A DNA stretch of 64,000 nt from the NCBI RefSeq assembly GCF_027579695.1, contig NC_083583.1:4702542-4766541 (forward strand). Direction: 5' to 3'. The notes beneath the pieces were generated by a model. That model ran no database searches. It was given only the letters and a program-made list of their open reading frames with translations, and had not been told where the DNA came from. Shown here piece by piece: positions 1 through 59,400 of this stretch. The position numbers and the translations under genes are program-made. This DNA is from Neoarius graeffei. Lineage: Eukaryota; Chordata; Actinopteri; Siluriformes; Ariidae. How positions within the stretch are numbered: position 1 is the first letter of the stretch; every line of letters starts with the position of its first letter.

Positions 1-178
1 ATAAAAACATGATACAGAGATTAATTTGTTGTAATATTCAGGCCGTAACAATGAAATTAAACTGAAGGGGGCACAAACTTTTGTGCTCAACTGTACAAGA
101 GATATTTTTTAGACTTGAAACAAATTTTGACTGCATTATAAAAAAAAAAGTTGCTTCCAAGTTACTGACAGTCAACTG

Positions 179-5398: not shown

Positions 5399-5866
5399 TA
5401 TATGAAAGGATTAATTTATGCCTCAACTACAAATATAACCTGATCTACCTACAGGGATACAACTATAAACCATTTCAAATGACTATTTATGAGCACAGGA
5501 AGTGATGCTGCTTTTCCTCGGACACATCCAAGTGGCAGTAAACAGCATCAAAACAATCGAGAAAAAAAAAAGAACCACATCAAGGTTCATTTCAGCTCGG
5601 GATGTTGGTTAAATTAGGACCATGGAAGATCTGTACATCATTTTTTTGACCTCTTAAAGTGACACAAACAGAAATGTTTTATGAATGGACACGTACAGGA
5701 ACTGTTAAAAACTGTCTATACATTTACATGAATAAACACAAAACACTTGAACTTAACCCTCCTGTTACCTTCAAAATTACTAACATCTTTTATCCTTGGG
5801 GTCAAATTGACCTCAGCAATTTAAACTTCCAAAAAATTATTAAAATTGTTCCCCAAGTTTATTTGT

Positions 5867-6240
5867 GGCGGCACGGTGGTGTAGTGGTTAGCGCTGTCGC
5901 CTCACAGCAAGAAGATCTGGGTTCGAGTCCCGTGGCCGGCGAGGACCTTTCTGTGTGGAGTTTGCATGTTCTCCCCGTGTCCGCGTGGGTTTCCTCCGGG
6001 TGCTCCGGTTTCCCCCACAGTCCAAAGACATGCAGGTTAGGTTAACTGGTGACTCTAAATTGAGCGTAGGTGTGAATGTGAGTGTGAATGGTTGTCTGTG
6101 TCTATGTGTCAGCCCTGTGATGACCTGGCGACTTGTCCAGGGTGTACCCCGCCTTTCGCCTGTAGTCAGCTGGGATAGGCTCCAGCTCGCCTGCGACCCT
6201 GTAGAACAGGATAAAGCGGCTACAGATAATGAGATGAATG
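5867..6240 (+). mobile_element. tRNA-derived SINE, family A, full length
   Basis: Head ggcggcacggtggtgtagtg with pol III A box (tagtggttagcg) and B box (ggttcgagtcc), a body of about 300 bases and the tail gcggctacagataatgagatga. A 12-base target duplication, aagtttatttgt, flanks it at 5855-5866 and 6241-6252. It sits just inside the left end of the piggyBac element. Open frames across it are by-products. Confidence 0.93.
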
Positions 6241-7358: not shown

Positions 7359-7729
7359 GGGCGGCACGGTGGTGTAGTGGTTAGCGCTGTCGCCTCACAG
7401 CAAGAAGGTCTGGGTTCGAGCCCCGGGGCCGGCGAGGGCCTTTCTATGTGGAGTTTGCATGTTCTCCCCGTGTCCGCGTGGGTTTCCTCCGGGTGCTCCG
7501 GTTTCCCCCACAGTCCAAAGACATGCAGGTTAGGTTAACTGGTGACTCTAAATTGAGCGTAGGTGTGAATGTGAGTGTGAATGGTTGTCTGTGTCTATGT
7601 GTCAGCCCTGTGATGACCTGGCGACTTGTCCAGGGTGTACCCCGCCTTTCGCCCGTAGTCAGCTGGGATAGGATCCAGCTCGCCTGCGACCCTGTAGAAG
7701 GATAAAGCGGCTACAGATAATGAGATGAG
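7359..7729 (+). mobile_element. tRNA-derived SINE, family A
   Basis: Full-length copy with A and B boxes and the gataatgagatgaga tail. The flanks match as a target duplication: atgttatgatca before, atgttatgacca after. It is inserted in the C-terminal third of the piggyBac transposase. Confidence 0.93.
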
Positions 7730-11258: not shown

Positions 11259-21808
<10,550 letters not shown>

Positions 21809-21914: not shown

Positions 21915-23064
21915 AAAAGTTTTTTTTTCTTTTTCTTTCCAAAAACATTCAAAATACAAACAAATAGAGCACCATATATATACAGATCCAAAAAATATCA
22001 AAGAAGTAAAACACACACATAGCAATAAAGTAAAAAAATATGAACAAGAAAGGGGCTACTTAACTATCTTTACATATGTTAATCGAGTAAATCAAAGTCA
22101 TCCAAAAAGGATATAAAATAACCAACATCCTTATTTTCAACTAACTTTAAAGATTTGGCAAAAAGCTTGAGGTCATTCTTCCAGTGTGTAACATAAGGTT
22201 TAGTTTAAAAAAAAAACGACATTTGTGAATAAAGTGTTTACCTAAAAGTAGTAAATTATTAATACCATATTCCATTTTGTTATTATTTAAAAACACTCCA
22301 AATTTAATTTCTTTAATGGATAAAGGGGCAAACTGAATCCCCCTAGACTGTAGCCAAGCCTGAAAATCAATCCAAAATCTTTGTATTAAATCACATAGAA
22401 AGAAAAGATGTTCCAAATCCTCCTCCTCTGTTTCACAAAACACACATTTACCAGTTTCAAATTTAAATTTCTTCTTAAAAAATTCTTTGGTTGGGTAAAT
22501 TCTATTCAAAATTTTGAACTGTATTTCTTTCGCTTTGAAGGGAATTAGAAAGGAGAGATATTTAGTTCTAATCTTTTTAATTTCTACTGTTTCAAAATCT
22601 TTTAATATGTAATCTCTTTTGACAGAATTAGGAAAGCAAATATTTTGTAAGGAACGTCTTAAAAATTTGTTATCGCACTTTTTATTACAAAATTCGACAC
22701 CTTCAATCCAAAGTTGTCTCAGTCTAGGAGAAATATCAGAGTACACCATATCCTGTTCCACCATAGTTCGGATTGGTACAGGAATAGCCTTTACGATTTG
22801 GTTGTATTTTCTTTTTGTACATTGAATCTGAAATTTCTGACAGAAATGACCATGTTGTAAAATCTGTCCATCATTCATAAAGTGAGCAATAGCCCACACA
22901 CCTTTGGAAAACCATTCCTCAATAAAAATAGATTTTCTATTAACCAATATATACCTATTATTCCACACTGGGCTATTATGAGGGGTAAAATTATGCTTAA
23001 ATATTATTTTCCAATAAAGGAGGACCTGTAGAAAAGTTTTTTTTTTTGGTAAAGATTTTATCAA
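21915..23064 (-). mobile_element. L1-group LINE, 3' end with reverse transcriptase C-terminus
   Basis: The minus-strand frame 23064-22147 (305 residues) carries KCVFCETEEEDLEHLFFLC, a zf-RVT type Cys/His motif, preceded by KAKEIQFKILNRIYPTKEFF. This is how the C-terminus of L1/Tx1-group ORF2 proteins looks. The catalytic reverse transcriptase and endonuclease are missing, so the copy is 5'-truncated. The 3' untranslated part ends in a T-rich run at 21917-21935 (a poly(A) on the minus strand). Confidence 0.82.
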
Positions 23065-23075
23065 GTGAACCCTGT

Positions 23076-23520
23076 ATGGATTGATTTTCAGGCTTGGCTA
23101 CAGTCTAGGGGGATTCAGTTTGCCCCTTTATCCATTAAAGAAATTAAATTTGGAGTGTTTTTAAATAACAAAATTGAATATGGTATTAATAATTTACTAC
23201 TTTTAGGTAAACACTTTATTCACAAATGTCGTTTTTTTAAAACTAAACCTTATGTTACACACTGGAAGAATGACCTCAAGCTTTTTGCCAAATCTTTAAA
23301 GTTAGTTGAAAATAAGGATGTTGGTTATTTTATATCCTTTTTGGATAACTTTGATTTACTCGATTAACATATGTAAAGATAGTTAAGTAGCCCCTTTCTT
23401 GTTCATATTTTTTACTTTATTGCTATGTGTGTGTTTTACTTCTTTGATGTTTTTGGGATCTGTATATATATGGTGCTCTATTTGTTTGTATTTTGAATGT
23501 TTCTGGAAATAAAAAAAAAC
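23076..23520 (+). mobile_element. Second LINE 3' end in inverted orientation
   Basis: The same LINE tail read on the plus strand (WIDFQAWLQSRGIQFAPLSI to FDNFDLLD, stop, 3' untranslated region, A-rich end near 23510). Its sequence mirrors 21935-22360, forming an inverted repeat with arms of about 430 bases around a 700-base spacer. One base run differs (aacaaaattgaa here, aataacaaaatgga there), showing slight divergence. Confidence 0.85.
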
Positions 23521-23991: not shown

Positions 23992-25554
23992 CACGGGCGA
24001 CTGCTCTAAGACAACGAGGGAGGCTCAGCCTCCTCTAAAAATGACGAACATCGTGTAGGATGAATTGCGCTAGGCTTATGTTATAGCCGACCTTATAACA
24101 TTGCTATTTCAGATCCAGAATCATAGAAATATATGTGCTCAACCCACTACAGTGCGAAATCATTCCATTATAACTTTCCCCAGTTCACCTCATGTGTGCG
24201 TGAGTTTTTCCCCCTCGTGACAGCGCGATGCAGCCCAGCCTCAGTGGACTTCAATGGCATTTGGGAGCTCTGCGCTTTCAATATCAAAATGCAAGACGAT
24301 TATTGGACAAATACTGCGAAAACGCCCGCCCACGGACTCCCAGCCTCACAGTGGGAGGGACATGGCAAAGCTTTCCGCGAGGAGACTGGTGATTGGTGAA
24401 AGCGGCCAGATATTTTCTTTGATTGACAGCTTGTTTCAAATATAGACAGGCAGCGGTGAATCTCAGTTCAGTCCCGTGTGAATTCGCAAGTGCTGTGGTG
24501 TATTGTAAGAGATCAGCTTACATTTCGATTTCATTCATTACATACAGTTTCTACCAGCTTTTTTAGTTTGTATATATTTTCATTGTAAATAAAGTGTAAA
24601 TATAGTGTTGTCAAGTTTGCTATCTTGGTTCCAGAAATTTCGTTTATTTGAGTGACTGAACTTGAACTTGAGGGGGCTAGTCAGCTAGCAAGAAAGCTGC
24701 GCACGGATGCCAAGCATTGCTGATTTAATTTTGGCGAAGCCATTTGCCAGTCTTCCTTTCGAGGAAAAAATTAAAATTAAAGAGCAGGGTAGACCAACGC
24801 CTCAAATTGACTTGGTGAAAAAGGTAGGGAATAATACTCGTTCCTTTCAGCTCTCCTGGTACGAGAAAGTGAATTGGCTAACAGCAAGTGACCCACATCA
24901 ACAACAGTAAATAGGCTACTTTAGTAATATGTCATGGATGGACCAAAAATATAGAATCCATTTAAAATGTTTATGCTGAGTATATTATATTGGAATATAT
25001 ATTTATCTGGATATGAATTAAACACAGCTACAATTTGGAAAACATTTTTAAACAAAAACACAGCCGAGAACATTTCACACTACAGACCTGGATTAAAAGT
25101 GAAGGGTTATCAAAATTGTCAATAAAACATTTCTCAGTCAAAATAAGTAAAATATAGGGAAAGTGTCATTGAATGAAATGTGTGGCACCCAGCTCTATGT
25201 TTGGCTCCCCAAGGTCAGTGCTTGTGCCTATTCCAGAACACTCTGCTGTTACTGCTGGGGTTCCTGACAAAGAGCTGCTTTCAATAATGATCAATTTTTA
25301 AACAACATGCCACAATTTTAAAATATAAAATGTTAAAATATACCCCCCCCCCCCCCCCAACACCACCATCATGTATATTGGACAGTAGGCTAATGGGCCA
25401 AAAGAACCTGTTATTTCACAGTTTGTGACCCTGCCAACAATCAGCCAGATCAGAGGCAAGAGTATGGGCAAAATTGATGTGTTTTTTCTTTTAAAATCTG
25501 GAAATATCATAACTGACCAGCCTCCCCTGTTTGAAAGACTACCAGCCGCCATTG
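23992..25554 (+). mobile_element. hAT element with zf-TTF reading frame, copy 2
   Basis: Perfect 8-base target duplication GTGTGAAC at 23984-23991 and 25555-25562. Ends CACGGGCGACTGCTC and ACCAGCCGCCATTG. Same family as 7833-9443 but opposite orientation and without the internal 116-base doubling. A C-run (25344-25359) marks the place of a G-run in copy 1. Confidence 0.93.
24707..24910 (+). CDS. Fragment of zf-TTF (ZMYM1-like) hAT transposase
   Basis: A 67-residue frame, MPSIADLILAKPFASLPFEE to NNTRSFQLSWYEKVNWLTA, the same as 8626-8432 apart from one His/Arg change and the end. The SFQxSWY motif opens the TTF-type zinc finger in ZMYM1-like hAT transposases. No catalytic domain follows. The frame may be the first exon of a gene whose remainder was deleted in this nonautonomous family. 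Confidence 0.6.
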   Translation: MPSIADLILAKPFASLPFEEKIKIKEQGRPTPQIDLVKKVGNNTRSFQLSWYEKVNWLTASDPHQQQ

Positions 25555-27627: not shown

Positions 27628-27982
27628 TGCTAACCACTACACGGTGGTATATTTACATCTTGGGTATTTTTAGGAACAAGATCAATGCAATTCTCTGATT
27701 TTATATTAAACTTTGGTCAAATATCTGTCACATTTTGCATTTTGTGCAATTTTTTTTACCTTGCGCAATACCAGAAAAATTCAGTTAAAATCAAGCCATT
27801 TGAGGCGAATTCGTCCACCTCTGAAAAAACTTGGCATTTGGATTTCCCGGCAATCATTGATTTTTGTGACGTCACGTGCGGGATGCCTCCTTCTGAATCC
27901 CATGTCAGCGTTGGTTTGTTTATGAGAAAACGACCTGGTGGTTTTCTGCAAATTTCTTCAATGTTATCACGTAATTATTAAA

Positions 27983-28459
27983 ATGGTTAACAGATGTATC
28001 GTAGGAGGGTGTAGCAACACCAATCATGATGGGATTAGTACTCATCGTTTTCCAAAAGACCGGACAATGAGAGAGAAATGGGAGCGCTTCGTGCGAGGCA
28101 CCCGGAAAAACTGGCAACATGCAACAGACCACAGCGTCATATGTGGGGCTCGCTTCATAAAGCCCGACGACTTTGAGAACTATTTGCAGTGGGAAATGGG
28201 CTTCAAAAAGCAACTTGATCTGAAAAAAGACACAGTTCCATCTGTTAGAATGCCCAAAGCAACACCGTCTCCATCTGTGTCAGCGTCACCAAAGGAGCCA
28301 GCAGTGCTCGTCTCCCCTGACAGAAGGCGAAGTGCCGCATCCACCGAGGCTCTCGAAGCTGAGGACCAAGCAGAGCCGAGAAAAAGACCAAGAAAATCGG
28401 CGATTCACAAGTTGACTGTTGCCAGGGTAAGAAATAAGAGAGATTATACTCTAAATTAG
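27983..28459 (+). CDS. THAP-domain protein start, probably Kolobok-type transposon gene
   Basis: A 158-residue frame starting at the ATG at 27983 (MVNRCIVGGCSNTNHDGIST). Residues 5-58 follow the THAP zinc finger: C5, C10, P24, W33, then C54 and F58. The usual final His (C-x2-H-F) is replaced by Arg57 (ICGARF). A Ser/Pro-rich stretch and a basic PRKRPRKSAIHKL segment follow. A possible splice donor (ccag|ggtaag) near 28425 suggests that this is a first exon. THAP proteins in fish genomes are often Kolobok or P-like transposases. I found no paired ends here, so a host gene cannot be excluded. Confidence 0.6.
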   Translation: MVNRCIVGGCSNTNHDGISTHRFPKDRTMREKWERFVRGTRKNWQHATDHSVICGARFIKPDDFENYLQWEMGFKKQLDLKKDTVPSVRMPKATPSPSVSASPKEPAVLVSPDRRRSAASTEALEAEDQAEPRKRPRKSAIHKLTVARVRNKRDYTLN

Positions 28460-30704: not shown

Positions 30705-31070
30705 GGGCAGCACGGTGGTGTAGTGGTTAGCGCTGTCGCCTCACAGCAAGAAGGTCCCGGTTCGAGCCCCGTGGCCGGCGAGGGCCTTTCTGTGCGGAGT
30801 TTGCATGTTGTCCGCGTGGGTTTCCTCCGGGTGCTCCGGTTTCCCCCACAGTCCAAAGACATGCAGGTTAGGTTAACTGGTGACTCTAAATTGAGCGTAG
30901 GTGTGAATGTGAGTGTGAATGGTTGTCTGTGTCTATGTGTCAGCCCTGTGATGACCTGGCGACTTGTCCAGGGTGTACCCCGCCTTTCGCCCGTAGTCAG
31001 CTGGGATAGGCTCCAGCTCGCCTGCGACCCTGTAGAACAGGATAAAGCAGCTACAGATAATGAGATGAGA
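30705..31070 (+). mobile_element. tRNA-derived SINE, family A
   Basis: Full-length copy with A and B boxes and the gcagctacagataatgagat tail. It carries a 10-base gap relative to other copies (catgttgtccgcgtggg). Confidence 0.92.
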
Positions 31071-31747: not shown

Positions 31748-32271
31748 CACTACCGTCAAAAGTTTGGGGTCACCCAGACAATTTTGTGTTTTCCATGAAA
31801 AGTCACACTTTTATTTCCCACCATAAGTTGTAAAATGAATAGAAAATATAGTCAAGACATTTTTCTGGCCATTTTGAGCATTTAATCGACCCCACAAATG
31901 TGATGCTCCAGAAACTCAATCTGCTCAAAGGAAGGTCAGTTTTATAGCTTCTCTAAAGAGCTCAACTGTTTTCAGCTGTGCTAACATGATTGTACAAGGG
32001 TTTTCTAATCATCCATTAGCCTTCTGAGGCAATGAGCAAACACATTGTACCATTAGAACACTGGAGTGAGAGTTGCTGGAAATGGGCCTCTATACACCTA
32101 TGGAGATATTGCACCAAAAACCACACATTTGCAGCTAGAATAGTCATTTACCACATTAGCAATGTATAGAGTGGATTTCTGATTAGTTTAAAGTGATCTT
32201 CATTGAAAACAGTGCTTTTCTTTCAAAAATTAGGACATTTCAAAGTGACCCCAAACTTTTGAACGGTAGTG
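31748..32271 (-). mobile_element. Tc1/mariner-type MITE, copy 2
   Basis: Inverted copy of 20547-21070. The left flank is TA. The right flank has become a (GT)n/TATA run (32272-32290). Ends are CACTACCGTCAAAAGTTTG and the inverse. Confidence 0.9.
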
Positions 32272-32287
32272 TGTGTGTGTGTGTATA

Positions 32288-33973: not shown

Positions 33974-36900
33974 ATGTGCTGGATAAAAGCTCTCACCGCT
34001 TGCCTTGTGCTCTCCAGCCTGCTGCTCAGCTCCCAGTCAGTGCCTATTAGTGTAGATAAAACTAAAGTCAAGGTGCCAGAAGAAAAGGTGCAGGAACCGC
34101 CTCAGAGTGTGGTGAGTTGTTGCTTTTGTTTTGTCCGAGTTCAGAAAGAGAAATGCACTCACTGGCCACTTTAATAGGAACTTGCTGTTGAGTCTAAGGT
34201 TCCTGTTCTTGGCTGCAGGAGGGAAAGAAAGCACAACTTTATTCATCACACACTTGTGAAACTTCCTCTCTGCATTTAACCCATCTGAAGCAGTGAACAC
34301 ACACACACACACACGCCCAGAGCAGTGGGCAGCCATGCTAACAGCGCCCGGGGAGCAGTTGGGAGTTCGGTGCCTCGCTCAAGGCCACCTCAGCCCAAAG
34401 CCGTTCCATATTAACCTAACCGCATGTCTTTGGACTGTGGAGGAAACCCACGCAGACACAGCGAGAACATGCGAACTCCACACAGAAAGGCCCTCGCCGG
34501 CCGCTGGGTTCGAACCCAAAACCTTCTTGCTGTGAGGCGACCGTACGAACCACTACACCACCGTGCTGCTGAGTGGAACCCAATGTGTTCTTCTCTCTCT
34601 GTTGCATGCTGAGATGCTTTTCTGCTCACCACGGTTGTAAAGAGTGATTATGCGAGTTCCTATATCCTTCCTGGCAAAAAAAAAAATCTCGAACCAATCT
34701 GTCCAGTTTCCTCTGACCTCTCATCAACAAAGTGTTTGGTTTTTTTTTTTTTTTCTTCCTCCTCACCCATAGAACTCTCACTCACTCAGTGTTTTTGGTT
34801 TCCTGCACTGTTTTTTTTTTTTTTTTTTTTTCTTTGTAAACTCTCAAGACTGTTTGTTTGGTGTGTGTGTGAAAACCCCATAAGATCAGCAGTTTCTGAA
34901 ATACTCAAACCAACAGTGAAAGAAAGTCACACTTCACTTTGAGATCACAGTTTTTCCCATTCTGATGTTTGAACATTAACTGAAGCTCTTGATTTGATGC
35001 GTCGTGCTGCTGTCAAGGGATCGGCTGATTAGAGAACTGCAGAAAACAGCAGGTGTTTTGTCTCTGTGTTCTTTATAAAGTGGCCGGTCAGTGTAGCCTG
35101 AAACACTAAAGCGCCGCTGCATCACTCTTAGATAAAGGTTTGTTTTTTGCTGTCTTTGACTTAAGGTTGATAAATACGCATACGCAAGATACAGTAGTTA
35201 CTGCACTTGTACCGCGGTGTTGTGGCGTGTCACTTGTTCACATCCTCAAAAGTTAATGTGACATTTCCATGTGCTGCAATACCAACATAAGCAGTGCAGG
35301 CAGTACAGAATAAACCAACTAATGCACATCAAATTGCTTACTTGGGTACTATTCTATTGAATACTAATGCCAATACAAATCTCAACTTTTTTTTTTTTTA
35401 AAACCTCCTGAAAGAGCTGTTCAAGTTCTGGATTTTCAGGTTAAGTAAATATTTTTAAAGGTAAAATGGAGTTTCTGGATTTGAGACTGAGATCATGATG
35501 GCATTCATGATGACAGCAGAACGTTTTAAAGAAACTGAATGGAATCACTAAATGCAAGGCTCGAAATTCATATATTTTTTTCACCAGCCAGCCGGACTAG
35601 TTTCCTTCCAAAGTAACTCGTCAAACAGAAAATCAACTCGCCAAAATTTGTTCATGTATGAATTTTACTTCTGTCAAAAATAACACAAGAGAGTCGTTAC
35701 CATTGTTCATGACTAATGTGCATTTATTTCAAGACCCGAGTATTTTGATACTGTTGTTAAATACATAAATGAGAACAACACAGAGCACCATAATAATATA
35801 ATATTAACAAATAATATATTGGACTTTTTTCCCCATCAGAATGCTCTTTGTCTAGCATGCGCTTTATGAACAGGCGCACACGCACTCTGTCATATGCGCG
35901 ATGCAGACATTGTTTCGCGTCCACGCTCTTGCTTGCTTGCTCTAGATTCTGGGAGATATTCTTCAATTTGCGGGCATCAGGGAGCCACTATCAATATGCG
36001 GGAGACTCCCGGAACTTCCGGGAGACTTGGGATGTCTGTTATATGCATGCTTAGTAGTGAAAAAACCGACAGCCTGACCATCCTGCCGATAAACACATCG
36101 ATTAACACAGACACGGTACACGCTTAATATGTGGCGGCTTTAGTTGACGGCGTGTCTGAATCTTCGCTTCATATAGCTCATTTTTATTTTCAACTAGTGA
36201 CAGGAATTACTCGCCAAATGACAAATTAAGTCGCCTCGGGCGACCGGACCACCGCGAATTTCGAGCCCTGAAATGTTACAGTTCAGTTTGTAAGCAGATG
36301 AGCACAGATGTTGGGTTATGTTTTGGCTCCGGTGTGCCGTCAAAGTGCAAGCTACAAAGTGGAGGGAAAACATGGACACCTCTTTGAAAGCATGTTTTGT
36401 TAGCAAGAAGACAGCCAGTTAACATTTTATAATCGTAGGTTTATGGTGTGTGTGTGTGTTTATTTTACATACAGTGACCTGTATGGTCAGTGTTTATAGG
36501 GTTAATCAACTTGTGTGTTTGAGTGATCTAAAGTAAATATCTCATCTCATCTCATTATCTCTAGCCGCTTTATCCTTCTACAGGGTCGCAGGCAAGCTGG
36601 ATCCTATCCCAGCTGACTACGGGCGAAAGGCGGGGTACACCCTGGACAAGTCGCCAGGTCATCACAGGGCTGACACATAGACACAGACAACCATTCACAC
36701 TCACATTCACACCTACGCTCAATTTAGAGTCACCAGTTAACCTAACCTGCATGTCTTTGGACTGTGGGGGAAACCGGAGCACCCGGAGGAAACCCACGCG
36801 GACACGGGGAGAACATGCAAACTCCACACAGAAAGGCCCTCGCCGGCCCTGGGGCTCGAACCCAGGACCTTCTTACTGTGAGGCGACAGCGCTAACCACT

Positions 36901-39900
36901 ACACCACCGTGCCGCCTAAAGTAAATATGACTTTTAAAATAATTTTTAAGTCGTGAACTGATATTTACTGTAGGCGCACTCGGTGGCCATGTAGACATGA
37001 TGTCATAAGCTGACTATGGTTTGAAGACCCCCCCCCCTTCTTTTTTTTATTATAAACTTTTAACTGGAACCCGAGTTTGGAAATTCTGAGATTTTCAAAT
37101 GCGGCATAAAACTCAAAGTAGTCAAACGGCATTGTGGGTGAGAAACTGTTAAGCAAAATTAACAGTATTTCTACAAACTTTTGACAAAAGAATCAGAAAT
37201 TAAATTTAGAAAGTGTGTTTCGTGCCAAACTCCATTGAGTTTTTGTTTGTTTTCAGTCGAAGGTCAATTATTTTTGCCTTCAACATCAGCTGCATCATGG
37301 AACGGTCCGAAACTGTAAAACATCAAGAATATTGCTATATTTCTATCTCACAATGAATGTTAACAATTTGCTTATAACCACACTGGAAGAGTTTTTTTTT
37401 TTTTTTTTAATAAAAAACACAGCTCCAGAAAGATCAACTCTTGTTCCTCTGACCTCTCATCAACAAAGTGTTTGTTTCCACCCACAGAACTGTCGCGCTC
37501 TCACTCACTGTTTTGTTTTTCACACCATTCTCAAACCAACACCCATGCCACAGTGAAAGAAAGTCACACTTCACTGTGAAATCACAATTTTTCCCATTCT
37601 GACGTTTGAACGTTAACTGAAGCTCTTGATTTGTATCTGCGTGATTTGATGCGTCGTGCTGCTGTCGAGGGATCGGCTGATTACAGAACTGCACAAAACA
37701 GAACAGCGGGTGAGTGTTCCTAATAAAGTGGCCAGGTAGTGTAATTTGAGCTGAACGCAGAGTGCTACAGTGTTTACACAAAGCGAGTGTTTGCACAGGG
37801 ACAAATAGAAAGTGTTTACTGAGCGATGAATGTCGTTAACTTTACAAACCATGAATGCATTTTAAAAAAAAAAATCCAAGTAAAATTTTATGATTTTTGT
37901 GACCTAAATTCTGCTAATGTTCTCTCCATGTTAAGGACACTGGACTGCATTATGACCGCTATCTCAGGGAAGTTATCGATTTCCTCGAAAAAGACCAGCA
38001 TTTTAGAGAAAAGCTCCACAACACGGACATGGAGGATATAAAGGTAGAATTAATTCTGGAATCAGGTTTATGATGTGTGTAAGTTGTAATTCTGACTGAT
38101 CTCGTATTCCAGCAAGGGAAACTGGCAAAGGAGCTCGACTTCGTGAGTCACCACGTCAGGACGAAGCTCGACGAGTTAAAGAGGCAGGAAGTGAACCGGC
38201 TGAGGGCGCTGATCAAAGCCAAGCAGGACATCGAAGGAGGGAACGGTACGCAACCTCACATGATGATAATGATGTCGATATTAAATGTGGGTTTGTTCGT
38301 TCTTTTTCCTTCTTTCTTGTTTTGTCCTGAGAATTTAGACAAATTTTTAAAGTGTTTGAGTTTTTTGTGCTGCGTGTTAGGGTTACGGACACCAACAGGA
38401 CGGTCGATCCTGTCATCTCGAGTACCGTCCTGGTTAAAGGAACAGTCCACCGTACTTCCATAATGAAATATGCTCTTACCTGAATTGAGACGAGCTGCTC
38501 CGTACCTCTCCGAGCTTTGCGCGACCTCCCAGTCAGTCAGACGCGCTGTCACTCCTGTTAGCAATGTAGCTAGGCTCAGTATGGCCAACGGTATTTTTTG
38601 GGGCTGTAGTTAGATGCGACCAAACTCTTCCGCGTTTTTCCTGTTTACATAGGTTTATATGAGCAGTGATATGAAACAAGTTCAGTTACACAAATTGAAA
38701 CGTAGTGATTTTCTATGCTATGGAAAGTGCGCACTATAATGAGAGGCGTACTAACACCTTCTGCGCGCTTCAGCAGCGCATTGATATCTGAGCTCTGTAT
38801 CAATGCGCTGCCGAAGCGCGCAGAAGGTGTTAGTACGCCTGTCATTATAGTGCGGACTTTCCATAGCATAGAAAATCACTACGTTTCAATTTGTGTAACT
38901 GAACTTGTTTCATAATCACTGCTCATATAAACCTATGTAAACAGGAAAAACGCGGAAGAGTTTGGTCGCATCTAACTACAGCCCCAAAAAATACCGTTGG
39001 CCATGCTGAGCCTAGCTACATTGCTAACAGGAGTGACAGCGCGTCGGACTGCGTCTGACTGACTGGGAGGTCGCGCAAAGCTCGGAGAGGTACGGAGCAG
39101 CTCGTCTCAATTCTGGTAAGAGCATATTTCATTATGGAAATACGGTGGACTGTTCCTTTAAAGCTGCAATTGATTAAAAGTCATAACTTATTTGTGACCT
39201 GCATTTTTGGGAAAACCAAAAAACAAACCCAACTTGAATTACCGTTCAGGAGCTCGGGATGGGATGGTCTCCTCAAGCCCAGAGTTCAGCAAGTAACCCA
39301 GGACTCGACATTAATCCACTCGTCCAGTCAGACAAGCAGCGAGATTTTTCCACTCGTCCTGACCATAACCTTTTTATTCCGATGTATTTACTCGTTCAGT
39401 GAAAAGGAAAGGGATTAACAGAGTTTATCAAAAAGCAGGTATAGTTATGATCATTTTAATTTTCCAATAAAACTCAAACTTTAACTGTCTCAATAAACAG
39501 AAACTATCCAAAGCCCCATTATGGTGTGTGTGTGTGTGTTCTAACCCATTACCTGATCTGCAGTTGTAAGAGTTAGACTCGCCCACATTCAAAGCTTCTA
39601 GAGGAAATAAAGTTAAATCCTGATTAAATCCAGTAAAACCTGAAGTATAAATTAATTTAAAGAAAACGAGTTGGACATGATAAGGACAGAATCAGTGTGA
39701 GTGAAAACAAACCGAGAGTTCGGCACCGTCGTAAAATTCCCCTGAAATATTTTACGACAATTGAGATGGTTAATGTGAACCATAGCAAAGAAAAATACAA
39801 TGGAACGAAGATTTCATTGTATTTTTACAATGAAATCTTATAAAGAGATTTTTTTTTTTTATTGAGGTGTTTGATCGCCACTTCTCTGATTTTAAATGAA

Positions 39901-42900: not shown

Positions 42901-45900
42901 CATCCAGATACAAACGGAGACGGCTTTTTCGATGAGCAGGAACTCGAGGCGTTGTTTACGAAAGAGGTACACGTGTGTTGATTTTCTGCGTCATGAAAAA
43001 CAGCGAGTGCAATTCTGTTTTAAAATATAAAAACTTGCGCTCACAGCTGGAGAAAATCTACGATCCTGCGAACGAGGAGGACGACATGGTGGAGATGGAG
43101 GAGGAGAGGTTACGGATGAGAGAACACGTCATGAACGAGGTGCCTTTTTTTTTTTTTTCCTCCCTTCCTTTTAATACCTCGAGACACTCAAAAGTCCAGG
43201 AATCTTTCTACATCTTTGAGTATCTATGAATACTAATTTGCATAAACACCCCCTCTTTAAAGTAGTTTTAGAATTTGAAAATCGGCTTTGCATGTAACGA
43301 TGAATACTAATATTTGTAGTATATTACAAAAAAAAATCACTAAAAAATGTTTATCCGTAATGATTTTATAGAGGATTTTCTGCGATAGCCCACGAGCAAA
43401 ACATCGCGCCGCGATCACGTGACCGATGACGTAGTAAATTGACAGGCTAGACAGCTCACTGCCTGTACATACTGTGACTGTGAGTGACAATTCGCGGATC
43501 TACGGATTATTTCCACTGTATACGATGGTAAAAAAAAAAGTGTGTAGTGAAAGTTCATTATGTCTACCTATTGAAACTCATCTCCTCTCATTATCTGTAG
43601 CCGCTTTATCCTGTTCTACAGGGTCGCAGGTGAGCTGGAGCCTATCCCAGCTGACTACTGGCGAAAGGCGGGGTTCACCCTGGACAAGTCGCCAGGTCAT
43701 CACAGGGCTGACACATAGACACAGACAACCATTCACACTCACATTCACACCTACGCTCAATTTAGAGTCACCAGTTAACCTAACCTGCATGTCTTTGGAC
43801 TGTGGGGGAAACCGGAGCACCCGGAGGAAACCCACGCGGACACGGGGAGAACATGCAAACTCCGCACAGAAAGGCCCTCGCCGGCCACGGGGCTCGAACC
43901 CAGGACCTTCTTGCTGTGAGGCGACAGCGCTAACCACTACACCACCGTGCCGCCCCTATTGAAACTATTCTTTAAATTCGTTTCTTAAGACAAGGATTTT
44001 TTAAGATGTTACCTTGACAGTTTCGGCGATAAACTTCCGCCTTCTTCAAAACAGTCACCAGATGTCGAGTGGTGACGTGCCTTATCAGCTGATGTTACTC
44101 TAACGCCGCTTTTCCACTACAAACGCGGCTGAGTCGGGCTGAGCCGTGCCGTGCTGAGTCGAGCTGAGCGGGGCTGTTGGAGTTGCATTTCGACTACAAC
44201 CGCGCTGAACCGTGCTGGCTGGAAGTGGGTGGACACATTGGGTGGAGTTAGCGAAAGTGGGTGGACGTCACGTGATGTCGTTAAGCAGCGCAAACAGTGA
44301 CATCAGTGATCTTTTAAGCGGTAGTCTCACGACCCGGATAGTAAACAATAAACATGGAGGACATGGAGTCGTTAGTGTTGCTGGTCTTGGTGCTGTGGCT
44401 TGTTGTCACCGACAACGCCAACAGATACTGGCAAGAGCGTATAGATGAGGCGAGGCGCATAAGGCTTCAGAAATTCTCGTAATTCTCCTTCTTCCGGGTT
44501 TGCGGTGTTTACAGATCCCAGCGTGCTCGCGGGGCGTGTGTGGGCATGTGAGGACACTCCTCCTCACCAATCAGTGCACAGGGGAGTGTCTGCTCACGCC
44601 CCTAGCCTCACTCGGCACGGTTTGGCTCGCTTCAGCCCCACTCCAAAACGGTGCGAGTTTTAGGGGCTAAGCAGGGCTGAAGCGAGCTGAGTCGTGCTGG
44701 TTTTTGGTAGTCGAAACGCGAGCCGTGTCGGGCTGAAGTGAGCTGAAAAAGGGTAGTGGAAAAGGGCCATTAGGAGGCGTGAACGTCCCGCCCAATTTCA
44801 AAAAAAGACAAAAAAAGACGTTCACGCCTCCTTAGAGTAACATCAGCTGATAAGGCACGTCACTACTCGACATCTGGTGACTGTTTTGAAGAAGGCAGAA
44901 GTTTATCGCCGAAACTGTCAAGGTAACATCTTAAAAAATCCTTGTCTTAAGAAACGAATTTAAAGAATGGTAAAAAAGTGTGTCGCGTACAGCTGTTCTA
45001 AAACCAACAAAGACGGAGTATCTCTGCATCAGTTCCCTGATCCTGATAAGAATAATGGATACGATCTCGCTGAGTGGAACCGGCAAGTAAAGCGGACGAG
45101 GGCAGACTGGTGCTAGTTGAAGGCTAGTGCACATGTTTATGCTGGTGAGTGTAAAGCGAAAAGTGGTTTTTATAGTCCATGGGAGAATCTTGAGGCGCGC
45201 TTTGAACGAGCTTCCCGAACCTTTAGGACAATTAAAGGGTTCTTTAACTAAACAAGAACTAGACGGTCCCCATTCAGGCCCGCATTTTTCTTCTCCCCAA
45301 GCTCCGAACACACACAAAGCAGACTTTGACAGCTGCAGTCATTTCCGTGTTGTTGGAAAGGCCGCTTGAACGCTATCGGTTCGCCCCAAATATACTGCCG
45401 ATCACGACGCACATTTCGGCCCAGACCTCTGATTTAGTAGAAAAAATGTTGTGCATCGACTCACCTCGACTGGAACACGATTCACTTTCGTCTTCAGACG
45501 CAATTTCGTCTGAATAATCGCTGTCTGATTCACTCATTTCGCTTGTGTTTCTACTGGATGCTGCCATCCTGGTCAATTTACTACGTCATCGGTCACGTGA
45601 CTCCCGACTGGGATTTCCAGGAAATGCTTCCCAGAAGCTCGGTTTTGTCGCTCAAATACACCCCTTTGATGGGGAAATTTTTTATTTTTAATTTCCATAC
45701 ATTGAATATATACCCTTATACTACATTTTCATCAATAGTGGGTTCTAAAATTCTAGAACTACTTTAATAGACTAATATTATTCAAATGAGCTAGCTGTGC
45801 TAGTAACATTACAGCCGTGTCATCATCAATATCTTGAGCGCAGACGTTGTCCTCATTGTCGTTACCGTTCTCGACTCCCCACGATACATTTTGTTTAGAA

Positions 45901-53400: not shown

Positions 53401-56400
53401 TGAATGATCCATCTACCAGTAACGCACTCCTTTTACTGGGCACCATTACTTTTGTTCTGACTGAACAGCTGGGCAAGGTCAAGGGGAAGTGAACATCGAT
53501 GGCAAAAATTCAAAATGGTCTTAGGCACTTTTGCTCATTCTAGATGTTTAGGTATTGGTCTGAACCTTCTGGAAGAAGTTGAATTTCTCTAATTGGATCA
53601 CTACGAAAAAAATGAGAGCTGTTTGAATTGGGGTGTGTGTAAATATGTCGGAACTAATTTTTTCACATAAATATTGGCATTTTTGCTTCAAGTTTTTTCT
53701 TCAGTGTTTAATTCAAAATCTTATCCATTTAACTATTATTTGCATTGCCATGATCATAAAATTAGCATACAACCTTAGTTTTAGGGGTTGATCTGAAAAA
53801 AGGTGTTTTTGAATGGTCTGAATTTCACAATCTTGGGTAATCCTGATTGTTATTCCGTTACCAAAAAAACCCCATTTTTAAATTTTTTTTTGCCTAATTT
53901 TTATTTTGAAAAAGTGAAACTTTTAAAAAGAAAGCTTCTTTGGACCTATAATCAGATTCTAAGATCAGTTGTTTGATTTAAAATTTTTTTGGTTGTTTGT
54001 TCAGTGGTCCAAATCAGTTACTCCGTTACCAGGTAACGGAGTAACTGATTAAGTCACGGAGTAACATCAGCTTTTAACTTACTAAATCAATGTTTTCAAT
54101 GCATTTCTTTTCGGTTTTTCCCATTTTTATGTTATAGAAATGCAGATTAGCACAATACCAGTCTTAAAACATCACAGACATGCAGTAAGATGATATCTTT
54201 ATTCACCCTGGGCACTCGACAACTTCACAATCTTTGACCCTCCATGGCTTCGTGGGCTTCTTCAGTTCAACTTAGAATTTTTATTCATGTCTTCTCTACT
54301 TGCATTGGTGGCTTCATGTAATAAAAGATGCTGATAATGAAAAGGCAAGAGATAGGATGCGGACGTGGCGGGCTGCCAAAAAAGCAGAAAACAACAAAGC
54401 TAAAGCATACAGTACACCCTCAAGTCTCAATCGTGCCGTCAAGCGTACGCTTAATACCCTTCCACAATCTCCACGCAAACGAAGGAAGGTTGTTACTAAA
54501 CTGACCCAGCAATTTGAAGCAGAGTATTCTGCGGAACCAGAAGCTGCCGAACCAGAACAACTCCCACCACCACCACCGGCTAATAAGATTCCAGATGAAA
54601 TACGAAATCGCATACAGGAATTCTACCTTCGGTCAGACATCAGTTGGACGGCCCCAGGCAGGAAGGACAGCATAACGGTCGTTAGAGATGGCAAAAAAGT
54701 CAAAGAACAGCGCCACTGCCTCTTAATGACAATTCAGGAAGCATTTGCTCTCTATAAAGAAGAAAATCCAAATGACTCTGTCAAACTGACGAGTTTCAAA
54801 TCATTTCGGCCAGATGTGGTGCTGTTCAGAAGTGATATGCCGCACAATGTTTGCGTGTGCCAATATCATGAAAACGTGAATCTTATACTCCAAGGACTCG
54901 GTCGAATAAATACCATTCCTGACAATCACAAACTTCTCCTTCGTACATTGTGCTGTGACATTGACAATGAGAACTGTATTTTTGGGAAGTGCGAAACTTG
55001 TCAGCGGAAGATAAGCACCGAGTCATTAGCAGAACTGGTTGATGATGATGAACTGTTGTCCGAGAATGCCAAATGGTTCAAGTGGATTCGTACTGATGAA
55101 GGGAAGATGGCCAAAGTGGAAGAAACAGGAACCGTAAATGATGCATTGCAGTTACTTGCCGATAAGCTCCCCGCCTTCAAGATTCACTGCTTCATCAAAA
55201 GCAAGCAGGCTGCTGAGTTCGTGCTGGCCTATTCGAACCCTCGCCCCAACCACGCCGTAATGCAGATTGACTTTAGTGAAAATGCTGCGATAATCGAGCA
55301 GGATGAGGTACAGAGTGCGCACTGGAGTCACATCCAGGTGACAATCTTCACTGCTGTCGCATGGATCATGGAAGATACCAAGTCGTACTGCATTACATCT
55401 GACACCCAGTCACACGATAAATACACTGCTGCCGTCTTCTTGAACACTTTGATTGACAACCTGCGGGCGGCAATGCCAGGTGAACTTACAGATCTAGACA
55501 TTTTCTCTGATGGCGCTGGTCAGCACTTCAAGCAGAAGTACATGTTCTTGTTCATCTCAAGTTTGCTGGAATCGAAAGGCATACGCATCCATTGGCACTT
55601 CTTTGCAACATCGCACGGAAAAGGAGCCGTTGATGGTATTGGCGGAACTGTCAAAAGAACTGTTTTTAGTGGTGTGAAGAGTCGCCGTTATCACATCACC
55701 AGTGCAGAAGAATACGCATCTTGTGCCAAGGAGCTCCTGAAATCGACAACTATTCTTCATGTAAGCAGTGCTGAAATCAATGACATGAAGCCAGAGTTGG
55801 ACAAACTGTGGGGTGCGGCGATCACAGTTCCCGGTACACACAACGTGCACTGTGTTCGAACAATAAGTCATGGAGTCGTGTCCGTGTCAAATTACTCCAG
55901 GCAGGTTGGGTCCACACATTGTCTCCTGCCTCAAGCTGCGATCGATACCCAAGACACTACATTCAAACCCGAGAACAACCCATCAGATGAGACTCCGATC
56001 CCAGATGAGACACCAATCGCAGATGAGACTCCGATCATCGAGTATGTGCCATCCCAGTCAGTTCCTGATCCCAGCAGCGAGGAAGAAAAAGAAGCTGCTT
56101 CGTTTGTCGTCGCTGGCAAATGGTATGCTGTCTACTGGGAGAAAACTCATTACTGGTTCATTGGACAGGCCCTGCATGAGCATAAGAAGGACAAGTCAAA
56201 ATGGGTGTTCTCATTCCTCGAGCAAGTTGACGAAGAAACAAATGGTTTCAAGACAACAAATGACATTGACTCTGCTAAACTTGATCACGTTCTAGCAGAA
56301 ATTGATGCTCCAGCTCCATCCTCATCCACAAGGACCAGTCTCTTAAAACTTACTGCCACTGACTTTAACTTGGTTAGGGAGATGTTTGCCAACTTCCTAT

Positions 56401-59400
56401 AAAATGAGAACTTTTGATGAACTGTGAATATTAATTTGATACGAACTTGAATGAACTTTTGGTCCCTGTGAATGATGAACTGTGAATATGAATTAACTGT
56501 GAACCTGAATGAACTTAAAAGATAAATGAAGCCCTTTTGCTCTTTAAAACAGTTATTTGATTACTTTAATAAAGAAAATAAGATAAAACAATGCTTATTA
56601 TTCATTTTAAACAAACCCTCACTCATCATAATTATTTGTTACTCCGTGACCAGGTTGCCTTGTTACTCCGTTACCACGCAAGGCTAAAAAAAAGTGTCCC
56701 TGATTCAAGAGGGGTTACAATTTCACCCTAATTTTTTGTTTGGGGATAGATAACTCAATATACTAACAGAATAAATAGCCACTTTTACATTCTTGTGCTG
56801 GAAACCGCATGTTATCCCTATCTGACTAAACATGCAAAAATCAGATGTAGTTTTCAGGTTACTCCGTTACCGGGCCTATTTTGGTGGTTTTCACCCAAAA
56901 AGTGTCAAAATCCAAAGAAAAATTTTTACCATTTAAAAGCACTAATATGGCCTATTAAAAATGTATTTAAGTCATTTTCATATCCAAATTGGTTTGAGTG
57001 TAATGGCCCAAAAACAGAAATTTTGTTACTCCGTTACCCCTTGACCTTGCCCAGCTACTCTTTTTTATACATACGTGAAAACCAACCATCAAACTCCAGG
57101 ATTTAAACTGTGTACTTCTCACTAACCACACTAACTCAAAGCCAATCAGAGGAGCGATTAGCGAGTCTCGTTATACCCAAATTTACACAAACTCTGACGA
57201 GAACTTTTTTTTTTTGGACAAGTAATTGGGGAAGCCATGGCCCAACGGTGAGAGAAGTAGCTTTGGGACCAAAAGGTTGCCAGTTTGATTCCCTGGACCA
57301 GCAGGAATAGCTGAAGTGCCCTTGAGGCTCCTCTGGATAAGAGCGTCTGCTAAATGGCAGTAATCAGGGATGTGATTTTTTCGCGGAATTCCACTTTTTT
57401 CACCTCAAAACTTGGAAAAAAAAAAAATGTTTCCGATTTTTCCCTCAAATCCACATTCGTATTCTATTCGTTCCGACTTTGAAAGATGGCAGCCTCGGAT
57501 TTGCATCTTTATGCCTCGATCACGGAGGCTGCCATTTTTCAACTCTTTGTTTGAAGCGAGCGCGTTCATTGGTTGTTACAGAGCGATGGGCCAATCATGT
57601 ACCTCGTTTCATCTCAATGACGTAATTACATCATTGAGATGAAACGAGGTACGTGATTGGCCCATCGCTCTGTAACAACCAATGAACGCGCTTGTTAGCT
57701 GTACGTAAGCTCGCTTCAAACAGAGTTGAAAGATGGCAGCCTCCGTGATCGAGTGTAAAGATGCAAATCGAGTTAAAGAAATCGACAGAATAGTGAAAAA
57801 CAAGTTCCGCTGGGAATGGTTGGAGAAAGAGGTTCCTACAGACGTTGGACATAACTGTGAGACATTTGTTCAGCGATTTCGTTCTTTGGGGAGAGGGCAG
57901 AGGTCTCTGGCTGTCAAGTTTGGGGATACTGGGACCTCCCCTGCCCGAGCTACGAGCGTCCAAAGTTGGGATAGAAACGAAACCTAAGCGGAGCGCCGCG
58001 GCTCGCTTTGGGGCGAATTACGTCCCAAGGCTAGCGGGCCCTGCTCACGCTGGTTCTTTGGGGGGGGTGAGTGAGTGAGTGTGTCAGAGTTGCATGCTGA
58101 CTGTTAAATTGGCTTGAATTTGTTAATCATGACAAGTTTTTTCTTGTGTGTTTTGCTTGCCATTTTAGTACAATTTTTAAGTCAGAAAAACCCAGGAGCT
58201 TCGGGGCGGCTTCCCCCCTTGTCCCCCCCACCAGGGCGCTGCCCTGGACCAGCTGGGGGCCTGTGGCCCCCAGACCCCCGCCTAAAATTTTCAGATAATT
58301 TCACCAGCCCCAAATCACATCCTTGAGTAATGTAATTGAGAGAACGAACCTCTGAAGCCGTTGGATGGTCCGCGGTATCCGTTCATGGCCCCTCTGGCGT
58401 TGCGGGGACCTCCACGTGGCACAGCTCGGCTGCTGTAGAACGACTGAGGCTGGCGTACGAACCCTGCGTTCTGCCCTGATGGCTGCTGGCTCATCGACTG
58501 GTGGCCCCCAGGGGAAGGAATCCCTTGGTCTTGAGAGTGGAACGCTCCGACGACTAAAAAGGACAAAATGGACATTTTACAGCAAGTCCGGCTCTCCGGC
58601 CGTGTGAAAGCAGCGATTATGAAAACTGAGAGGTGACATCATACATTAGTTCTGTATGTTCTCCACAGCACTACATAAAGATTTTATTCTTCTCTTATTA
58701 AAATCAAGAGTTCCACAACTGAAAGTGTCCTCCAGTGAAAAATTTCTGACTGGGACACGTACCTGACTGGAGAGGTTCCTGCTGAAGCTCCTGCTGCTCC
58801 ACCGAGTGTGTGGTCTGGCTGCTGAAGCTCTGGGTGTAAGTGCTCTGATACTGACTGGACATCTTCTGAGACTCTCTCTCATTCGAAGGCGGAACCGGGG
58901 CGTTCAGATTGAACACCTGACGACCAGATCGGACAAAAGAACATTAAATCATGCAGTCCTTAATAAGCATCTGTGATCCAGGAATATTTAGCACCTTCAT
59001 CTAATTGAGAACAGCAAAAACTACCAACTCTTATAATGGAAGTCCAAGCAGCCCTTCTGAAGTTTAACCATTTGCGAAAAACACTTTTGTATTTGGTGCG
59101 TTCTTCAGTCAAGTGTGTTTTTACACGTAAAGGAATCTGTGAAGCAGAAGAACTAACCCTTTGAGACAGAACTATTAAAAAGCAAAAGGGTGTGGCGGTG
59201 TATGAAATTCCTAGCTGCGATGGGAATGAAGGTGCAGGTGAAAATAAAAGAAAGGATGGAGTCAGGAGAAAACGAGGGCTCGGGCGTTCTTACCGCTTGC
59301 ATGGACTGGAATGGTGCGGCGTTGACGTTGATGCCACTGTGCAGGGGTTTGGACACCGACTGAAAGGCCTGGGGCTGGGATGATGGGGCAGGAGGCTGCT

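Follow-up and report, generated by a model that had tools for sequence, protein, structure and literature searches.

The question raised by positions 53471-57052 of a 64,000-nucleotide stretch of the Neoarius graeffei genome (Siluriformes, Ariidae; contig NC_083583.1, positions 4,702,542 to 4,766,541; hereafter the window) is whether the element there, which an initial annotation made from the letters alone had called a complete, probably young DNA transposon of uncertain family, is intact, still mobile and assignable to a named superfamily. Comparison with its sister copies places it in a young, probably live family of the Sola-like group of transposons with a three-aspartate (DDD) transposase, the Sola likeness being one of published description. 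The candidate for a live transposon is the family; in the window copy, the gene has lost its start. The element is delimited in the window as follows:

53467-53470, unstranded: left target-site duplication, AGCT (from the sequence and from sister copies with other 4-base flanks)
53471-57052: DNA transposon, 3582 bases
53471-53486, + strand: left terminal inverted repeat, GGGCAAGGTCAAGGGG, also present in sister copies
57037-57052, - strand: right terminal inverted repeat, 16 bases
57053-57056, unstranded: right target-site duplication, AGCT (from the sequence and sister copies)

The terminal inverted repeats are perfect over 16 bases and match at 20 of 20 when the palindromic AGCT is included, as the initial annotation had noted. 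AGCT reads the same on both strands, so the window alone leaves undecided whether these four bases belong to the element or are a copied target; they are a target duplication, since sister copies keep the same GGGCAAGG...CCTTGCCC ends next to different 4-base words. Both the proposed limits (53471-57052) and the proposed 4-base duplication are therefore correct.

To characterize the family, we searched the host genome (2.34 Gb, 38 contigs) at the DNA level, taking 300 bases from each end of the element as queries; copy counts from such searches are lower bounds. The 5' end was found at at least 14 places and the 3' end at at least 13, each at least 99% identical, with no older remnant of either end among the genome matches. 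These ends, shared across the genome, define at least 14 copies on twelve contigs, 13 of them with both ends and one (L034) without one end. Exact 4-base duplications flank 11 of the 13 two-ended copies (AGCT, AAAG, ATAA, ATCA, ATTT, CTTA, ATAT, TTAA, TAAT, TCTT and ATAT), with A or T at 38 of the 44 duplicated bases. Empty sites were found for two copies, L032 and L035. When the flanks of L032 are joined, they match three uninterrupted copies of a repeat (about 413 bases, 98% like those flanks) that hold ATTA once, one in L041 and two in the window:

31860-32272: empty site of the L032 insertion
20957-20545: empty site of the L032 insertion

For L035, the joined flanks match two uninterrupted copies (L042 and L045) with ATAT present once. 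As paralogous empty sites, these places show that each of the two independent insertions duplicated exactly 4 bases. Matches to the flanks of another copy, L033, that span the junction fall in that copy's own neighbourhood, and L061 (1802-3863, contig C11) is an internally deleted family copy of 2062 bases with a foreign insert of approximately 375 bases.

The copies are very similar to one another, each differing from the commonest letter at 0.36-0.69% of positions, which supports the reading of a young DNA transposon. Two copies, L027 (contig C4) and L028 (contig C20), are identical (0.00% different over 3766 bases) and carry different duplications (ATTT and CTTA, respectively) and unlike flanks; the family has therefore moved very recently. 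Other pairs are nearly as close (L030 and L031 are 0.03% apart, L025 and L026 0.08%). An uninterrupted frame of 740 codons, encoding 732 residues from its ATG, is present in L024, L027 and L028, and the remaining copies that retain the start codon have stops or frameshifts in the gene. The lack of older copies among the matches suggests a recent arrival in this genome, possibly by horizontal transfer, and on the evidence of these copies the family is probably live today.

The gene of the window copy differs from that of the intact copies at its beginning:

54276-56402, + strand: transposase frame, 708 codons stop to stop
54323/54324 (near): deletion junction, where 184 bases of the 3766-base copies are missing (alignment columns 861-1044)

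The single unbroken frame of the initial annotation is thus present, and from its residue 17 onward it matches the 732-residue protein of the intact copies. The deletion takes out the start codon and approximately the first 40 residues (MALTKAEKQRRYRERQ... in L027), so that the element cannot be called complete, and the first remaining in-frame ATG, at 54357, would give a protein of 681 residues at best. A splice-site explanation of this N-terminus was dropped because the intact copies reveal a simple deletion. The same 184 bases are missing from L032 and L033, which lie at other sites with other duplications (three different duplications, including that of the window copy) and have a one-base frameshift in common. 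Because copies at different sites share the deletion, the defective form moved more than once; the simplest account is that these derivatives were probably moved in trans by the transposase of an intact copy. The suggestion of a live or recently live element is accordingly borne out for the family, by two identical copies with different duplications, and not for the copy in the window.

We next consider the protein, whose residues are given in stop-to-stop numbering (D332, D412 and D453 correspond to D324, D404 and D445 of the initial annotation):

54852-55001, + strand: Cys/His cluster C193, C195, H198, C227, C234, C239 and C242, a putative zinc site
55269-55271, + strand: D332, first aspartate of the putative triad (IDFSENA), by conservation
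55509-55511, + strand: D412, second aspartate (FSDGAG), by conservation
55632-55634, + strand: D453, third aspartate (SHGKGAVDGIGGTVKR), with a lysine seven residues on
56088-56270 (approximate), + strand: C-terminal segment, weakly Tudor/Agenet-like by profile, tentative

In an alignment of eight proteins, from five lineages of the host genome and an outside relative (L013), the Cys/His cluster, the three aspartates and the lysine at +7 are invariant in all eight, with a spacing of D-(78..83)-D-(40..42)-D. The cluster and the three aspartate motifs had been picked out from the letters alone, and their conservation and spacing across these proteins argue for the DDD-type core proposed with them. 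The lysine is placed much as in the E(6)K/R pattern seen in other DDE (Asp-Asp-Glu) enzymes. No family in Pfam, NCBIfam or the Protein Data Bank (PDB) matches the window protein significantly, the lone Pfam match (E = 0.73) being far below cut-off; by sequence, these databases thus give no significant match to a known cellular gene, the finding that could have refuted a transposon reading. Searches of viral contigs, genome contigs, phages and plasmids with the window protein gave no result, nor did searches of viral contigs with a core fragment and with the codon pattern HGKG..DG.GG; alignment A1 against viral contigs gave 548 pattern matches and no relatives. One of 294 genomes of a single bacterial phylum was matched by alignment A2 (E = 0.006), a match that we rejected as chance, its frame resembling an ordinary tryptophan-synthesis gene by eye. 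Six guessed peptide strings near the third-aspartate motif were not found in the literature searched. At the C-terminus, PHF19, Agenet or SETDB1 chains, which we take to be Tudor-type folds, made up nine of the ten matches in one profile search (E = 0.07-1.8), and PHF19 three of the seven in a second; all matches were unrelated, however, when single sequences of related lineages were searched three times, and no Tudor likeness appeared in Pfam. That a Tudor-like C-terminus might link target choice to chromatin is speculation.

A feature absent from the initial annotation is a 14-base repeat, GTTACTCCGTTACC, which recurs eight times (at most two mismatches) in the two non-coding ends of the element:

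53849-53862, + strand: subterminal repeat, one mismatch
54017-54030 (+ strand), 54032-54045 (- strand) and 54052-54065 (- strand): cluster of three subterminal repeats, the first two an inverted pair with one base between
56638-56651, + strand: subterminal repeat, one mismatch
56662-56675, + strand: subterminal repeat, exact
56858-56871, + strand: subterminal repeat, exact
57025-57038, + strand: subterminal repeat, exact, with two bases in common with the right terminal repeat

The repeat occurs nowhere else in the window (0.17 copies expected by chance; none of 100 shuffles reached eight), and its copies are putative binding sites of the transposase.

To place the family among its relatives, we compared it with at least four further lineages in the host genome (L036/L037, L038-L045, L046-L048 and L049/L050), whose proteins align with that of the window copy at 24-32% overall identity. 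Two of these, L038-L045 and L046-L048, have inverted ends of approximately 850 and 812 bases, respectively, which in both cases begin with GGGTCATTCCA; exact 4-base duplications, read by eye, flank five of eight and two of three copies, and on sequence identity (compared copies mostly about 99% alike) they are likewise young. No 10-base word occurred five or more times in the one terminal repeat examined from each of these long-ended lineages. Outside the host genome, the codon pattern HGKG..DG.GG picked out 22 loci in genome contigs, of which one, L013 (JAAEPJ010000558.1, 288-3823), is a clear relative (33% identity over 591 residues, E = 1.4e-95, in a 705-codon frame). Like the window family, L013 is 3.5 kb long, with GGGCAATTCCAT...ATGGAATTGCCC ends (GGGCAA...TTGCCC) 3536 bases apart and eight subterminal repeats in the same layout (0.14 expected); unlike it, L013 uses a different, 12-base repeat and has no target duplication. 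The kept layout and changed sequence of the repeats fit binding sites evolving with their transposase. The contig of L013 is binned as a bacterium, with only the one match in that metagenome bin and an apparently intact transposon; our guess is that it is a eukaryotic contaminant of the bin. A second locus, L007 (1244-1723, - strand), in a lake metagenome bin, holds a frame with GHGKGVWDGLGG and is a possible distant relative (E = 0.012 and E = 0.009).

Several observations weigh against a recently active cut-and-paste family with a DDD transposase. Two of the two-ended copies lack an exact duplication (L029, with an altered 3' end, and the copy on contig C11, flanked by ATAT and CTAT), and the duplication of L030 (ATAT) is uninformative because it sits in a TA repeat. 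For the window copy itself, the search gave no empty site; the five places compared are uninformative, as its left flank ends, over roughly 44 bases, in the margin of a dispersed repeat. In the long-ended lineages, L038, L042 and L048 match at only three of four duplication bases and L040 at none, and L013 is flanked by AAAT and TTCT. The full frame is intact in only 3 of the 12 aligned copies, one of which (L024) has a mismatch in each terminal repeat. Codon changes among copies look neutral: 50 variants are non-synonymous and 16 synonymous, a ratio of 3.1 where 3.6 is expected, and variable sites are about as frequent in coding sequence (65 of 2196) as in non-coding sequence (50 of 1570), showing no purifying selection among the copies, as is usual after insertion. 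For the active site, the eight aligned proteins include two near-identical pairs and amount to six independent sequences, E155 and E335 are invariant in all eight as well, and the meeting of the three aspartates in one RNase H-like site is a prediction. With these points counted, we remain highly confident in a cut-and-paste family with a DDD, RNase H-like transposase working broadly as proposed below, a confidence that does not extend to the name Sola.

On that name, which was also the best guess of the initial annotation, true membership of the Sola superfamily (Sola1 or Sola2), compared by published description and not by transposase sequence, is the assignment we lean towards. Sola elements are described as having a DDD transposase, 4-bp duplications, a size of mostly 2-9 kb (some more than 15 kb) and inverted ends of 11-1124 bp (PMC10741241), and the window family, with its putative DDD triad, fits this description: its 3766 bases with 16-base ends, and the lineages with ends of about 850 and 812 bases, lie within the ranges, and 4-base duplications are found in 11 of 13 two-ended copies (one uninformative) and confirmed by the empty sites of two insertions. 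The targets agree less well. Sola2 targets are described as AWWT in elements of Dictyostelium fasciculatum and as AT-rich in another amoebozoan (PMC3627910), whereas AWWT fits only 3 of the 11 duplications here (ATTT, ATAT and ATAT, one of them uninformative), leaving AGCT, AAAG, ATAA, ATCA, CTTA, TTAA, TAAT and TCTT outside; the AWWT limit of that one Sola2 group is thus absent from the window family, although AWWT has not been shown to define all Sola2. A real but lesser possibility is that the family belongs to a DDD superfamily of its own, poorly described so far and only remotely akin to the proteins of Pfam DUF7869 (PF25273), which resemble the window family in their second- and third-aspartate motifs, the spacing of these and the lysine at +7. 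Twelve DUF7869 matches lie in the host genome (L064-L071), and the seven aligned carry D...GQNKN and a third-aspartate motif; from their sequence they look like another DDD transposase group. An hhalign comparison with these seven aligned the second and third aspartates (E = 0.0018, a single comparison), at a probability of only 15% and with the first aspartate out of register. Two of the eight aligned members match DUF7869 (best E = 0.0057), as does the core of L036 in a separate scan (E = 0.062), at 13.3 bits against a curated cut-off of 26; the window protein has no match in the Pfam scan. One DUF7869 protein is spaced D-86-D-42-D with lysine at +7, a spacing that depends on a motif picked by eye. 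The sequence match is thus very weak, no mobile element was delimited around the DUF7869 genes in this analysis, and the word DUF7869 was not found in the literature searched.

Other named groups fare worse. A relative of AcademX, of Kolobok/piggyBac or of Ginger is very improbable, even though published descriptions give duplications of 3-4 bp for AcademX and 4 bp for Ginger1 (PMC10045372), and 4-bp TTAA duplications with RR...YY ends, comparable to the GG...CC here, for Kolobok (PMC9587614), which also shares a short duplication and a DDD/E transposase with the window family. Against Academ and Ginger, the element has one long frame with no nuclease, helicase or integrase match in Pfam (window protein searched to E = 10, L027 to E = 1). 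Kolobok is mostly TTAA-specific (PMC9587614), and TTAA accounts for only 1 of the 11 duplications, so that TTAA-specific superfamilies are excluded. KolobokP is given duplications of 3-5 bp, and the target alone thus cannot exclude that lineage (PMC9587614); its composite structure is not seen here, as the window element lacks long terminal direct repeats (self-comparison gave short matches only, the longest of 39 bases, and no dedicated direct-repeat search was made), and the C/DxxH signature described for Kolobok (PMC9587614) was not seen by eye between the second and third aspartates. That a domesticated cellular gene merely lies between chance inverted repeats would suit the single long open frame and is already refuted by the shared ends and different duplications of at least 14 copies spread over twelve contigs, and by the empty sites of two of them. 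We consider it unlikely, finally, that the family is a new animal (probably vertebrate) superfamily beyond the roughly 20 named, marked by subterminal arrays, a Tudor-like C-terminus, recent horizontal transfer and continuing activity.

The rest of the window holds further repeats and gene fragments. A dispersed repeat of approximately 260 bases, 95-99% identical to the flank of L030 and apparently a young family resembling short interspersed elements, has two further matches at 91-92% among the matches listed (at least eight in all) and occurs at:

5860-6128, 7360-7621, 20131-20392, 30706-30959, 36654-36916 and 43692-43954: copies of the ~260-base repeat

A THAP-domain frame at 27926-28459 (+ strand; Pfam E = 1.3e-11) is possibly the start of a P-element/THAP9-like gene, and a zf-RVT frame at 22147-23097 (- strand; E = 6.7e-8) is a fragment of a retrotransposon lacking long terminal repeats. 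A SNORA19 small nucleolar RNA lies above the Rfam gathering score at 11949-12078 (- strand), and an intron of a host gene may therefore be nearby. A candidate decayed second copy of the element near 24870-25043 was dropped (E = 0.29, in-frame stops).

Together, these observations suggest how the Sola-like DDD family may move. The 732-residue protein would be the transposition enzyme, binding the inverted ends together with the eight 14-base repeats near them and excising the element at GGG...CCC through its putative DDD active site; joining to the target with a 4-base stagger would then leave the 4-base duplications at variable, AT-rich sites. Spread through this genome was very recent, with intact-gene copies persisting and the window copy one of three derivatives without a gene start, probably moved in trans. 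The ends, duplications, empty sites of two insertions, identical copies and common deletion are read directly from the DNA, and the enzymatic steps are proposed to connect them. Intact-looking, recently mobile DNA transposons are few in vertebrates and belong mostly to Tc1/mariner, hAT and piggyBac. Identical, unbroken copies of a family outside these usual groups would make its transposase directly testable and, possibly, a new gene-delivery tool. More broadly, the family appears to show a transposon at an early stage of its history within a genome, with at least 14 copies, none of them old, and defective derivatives already spreading.

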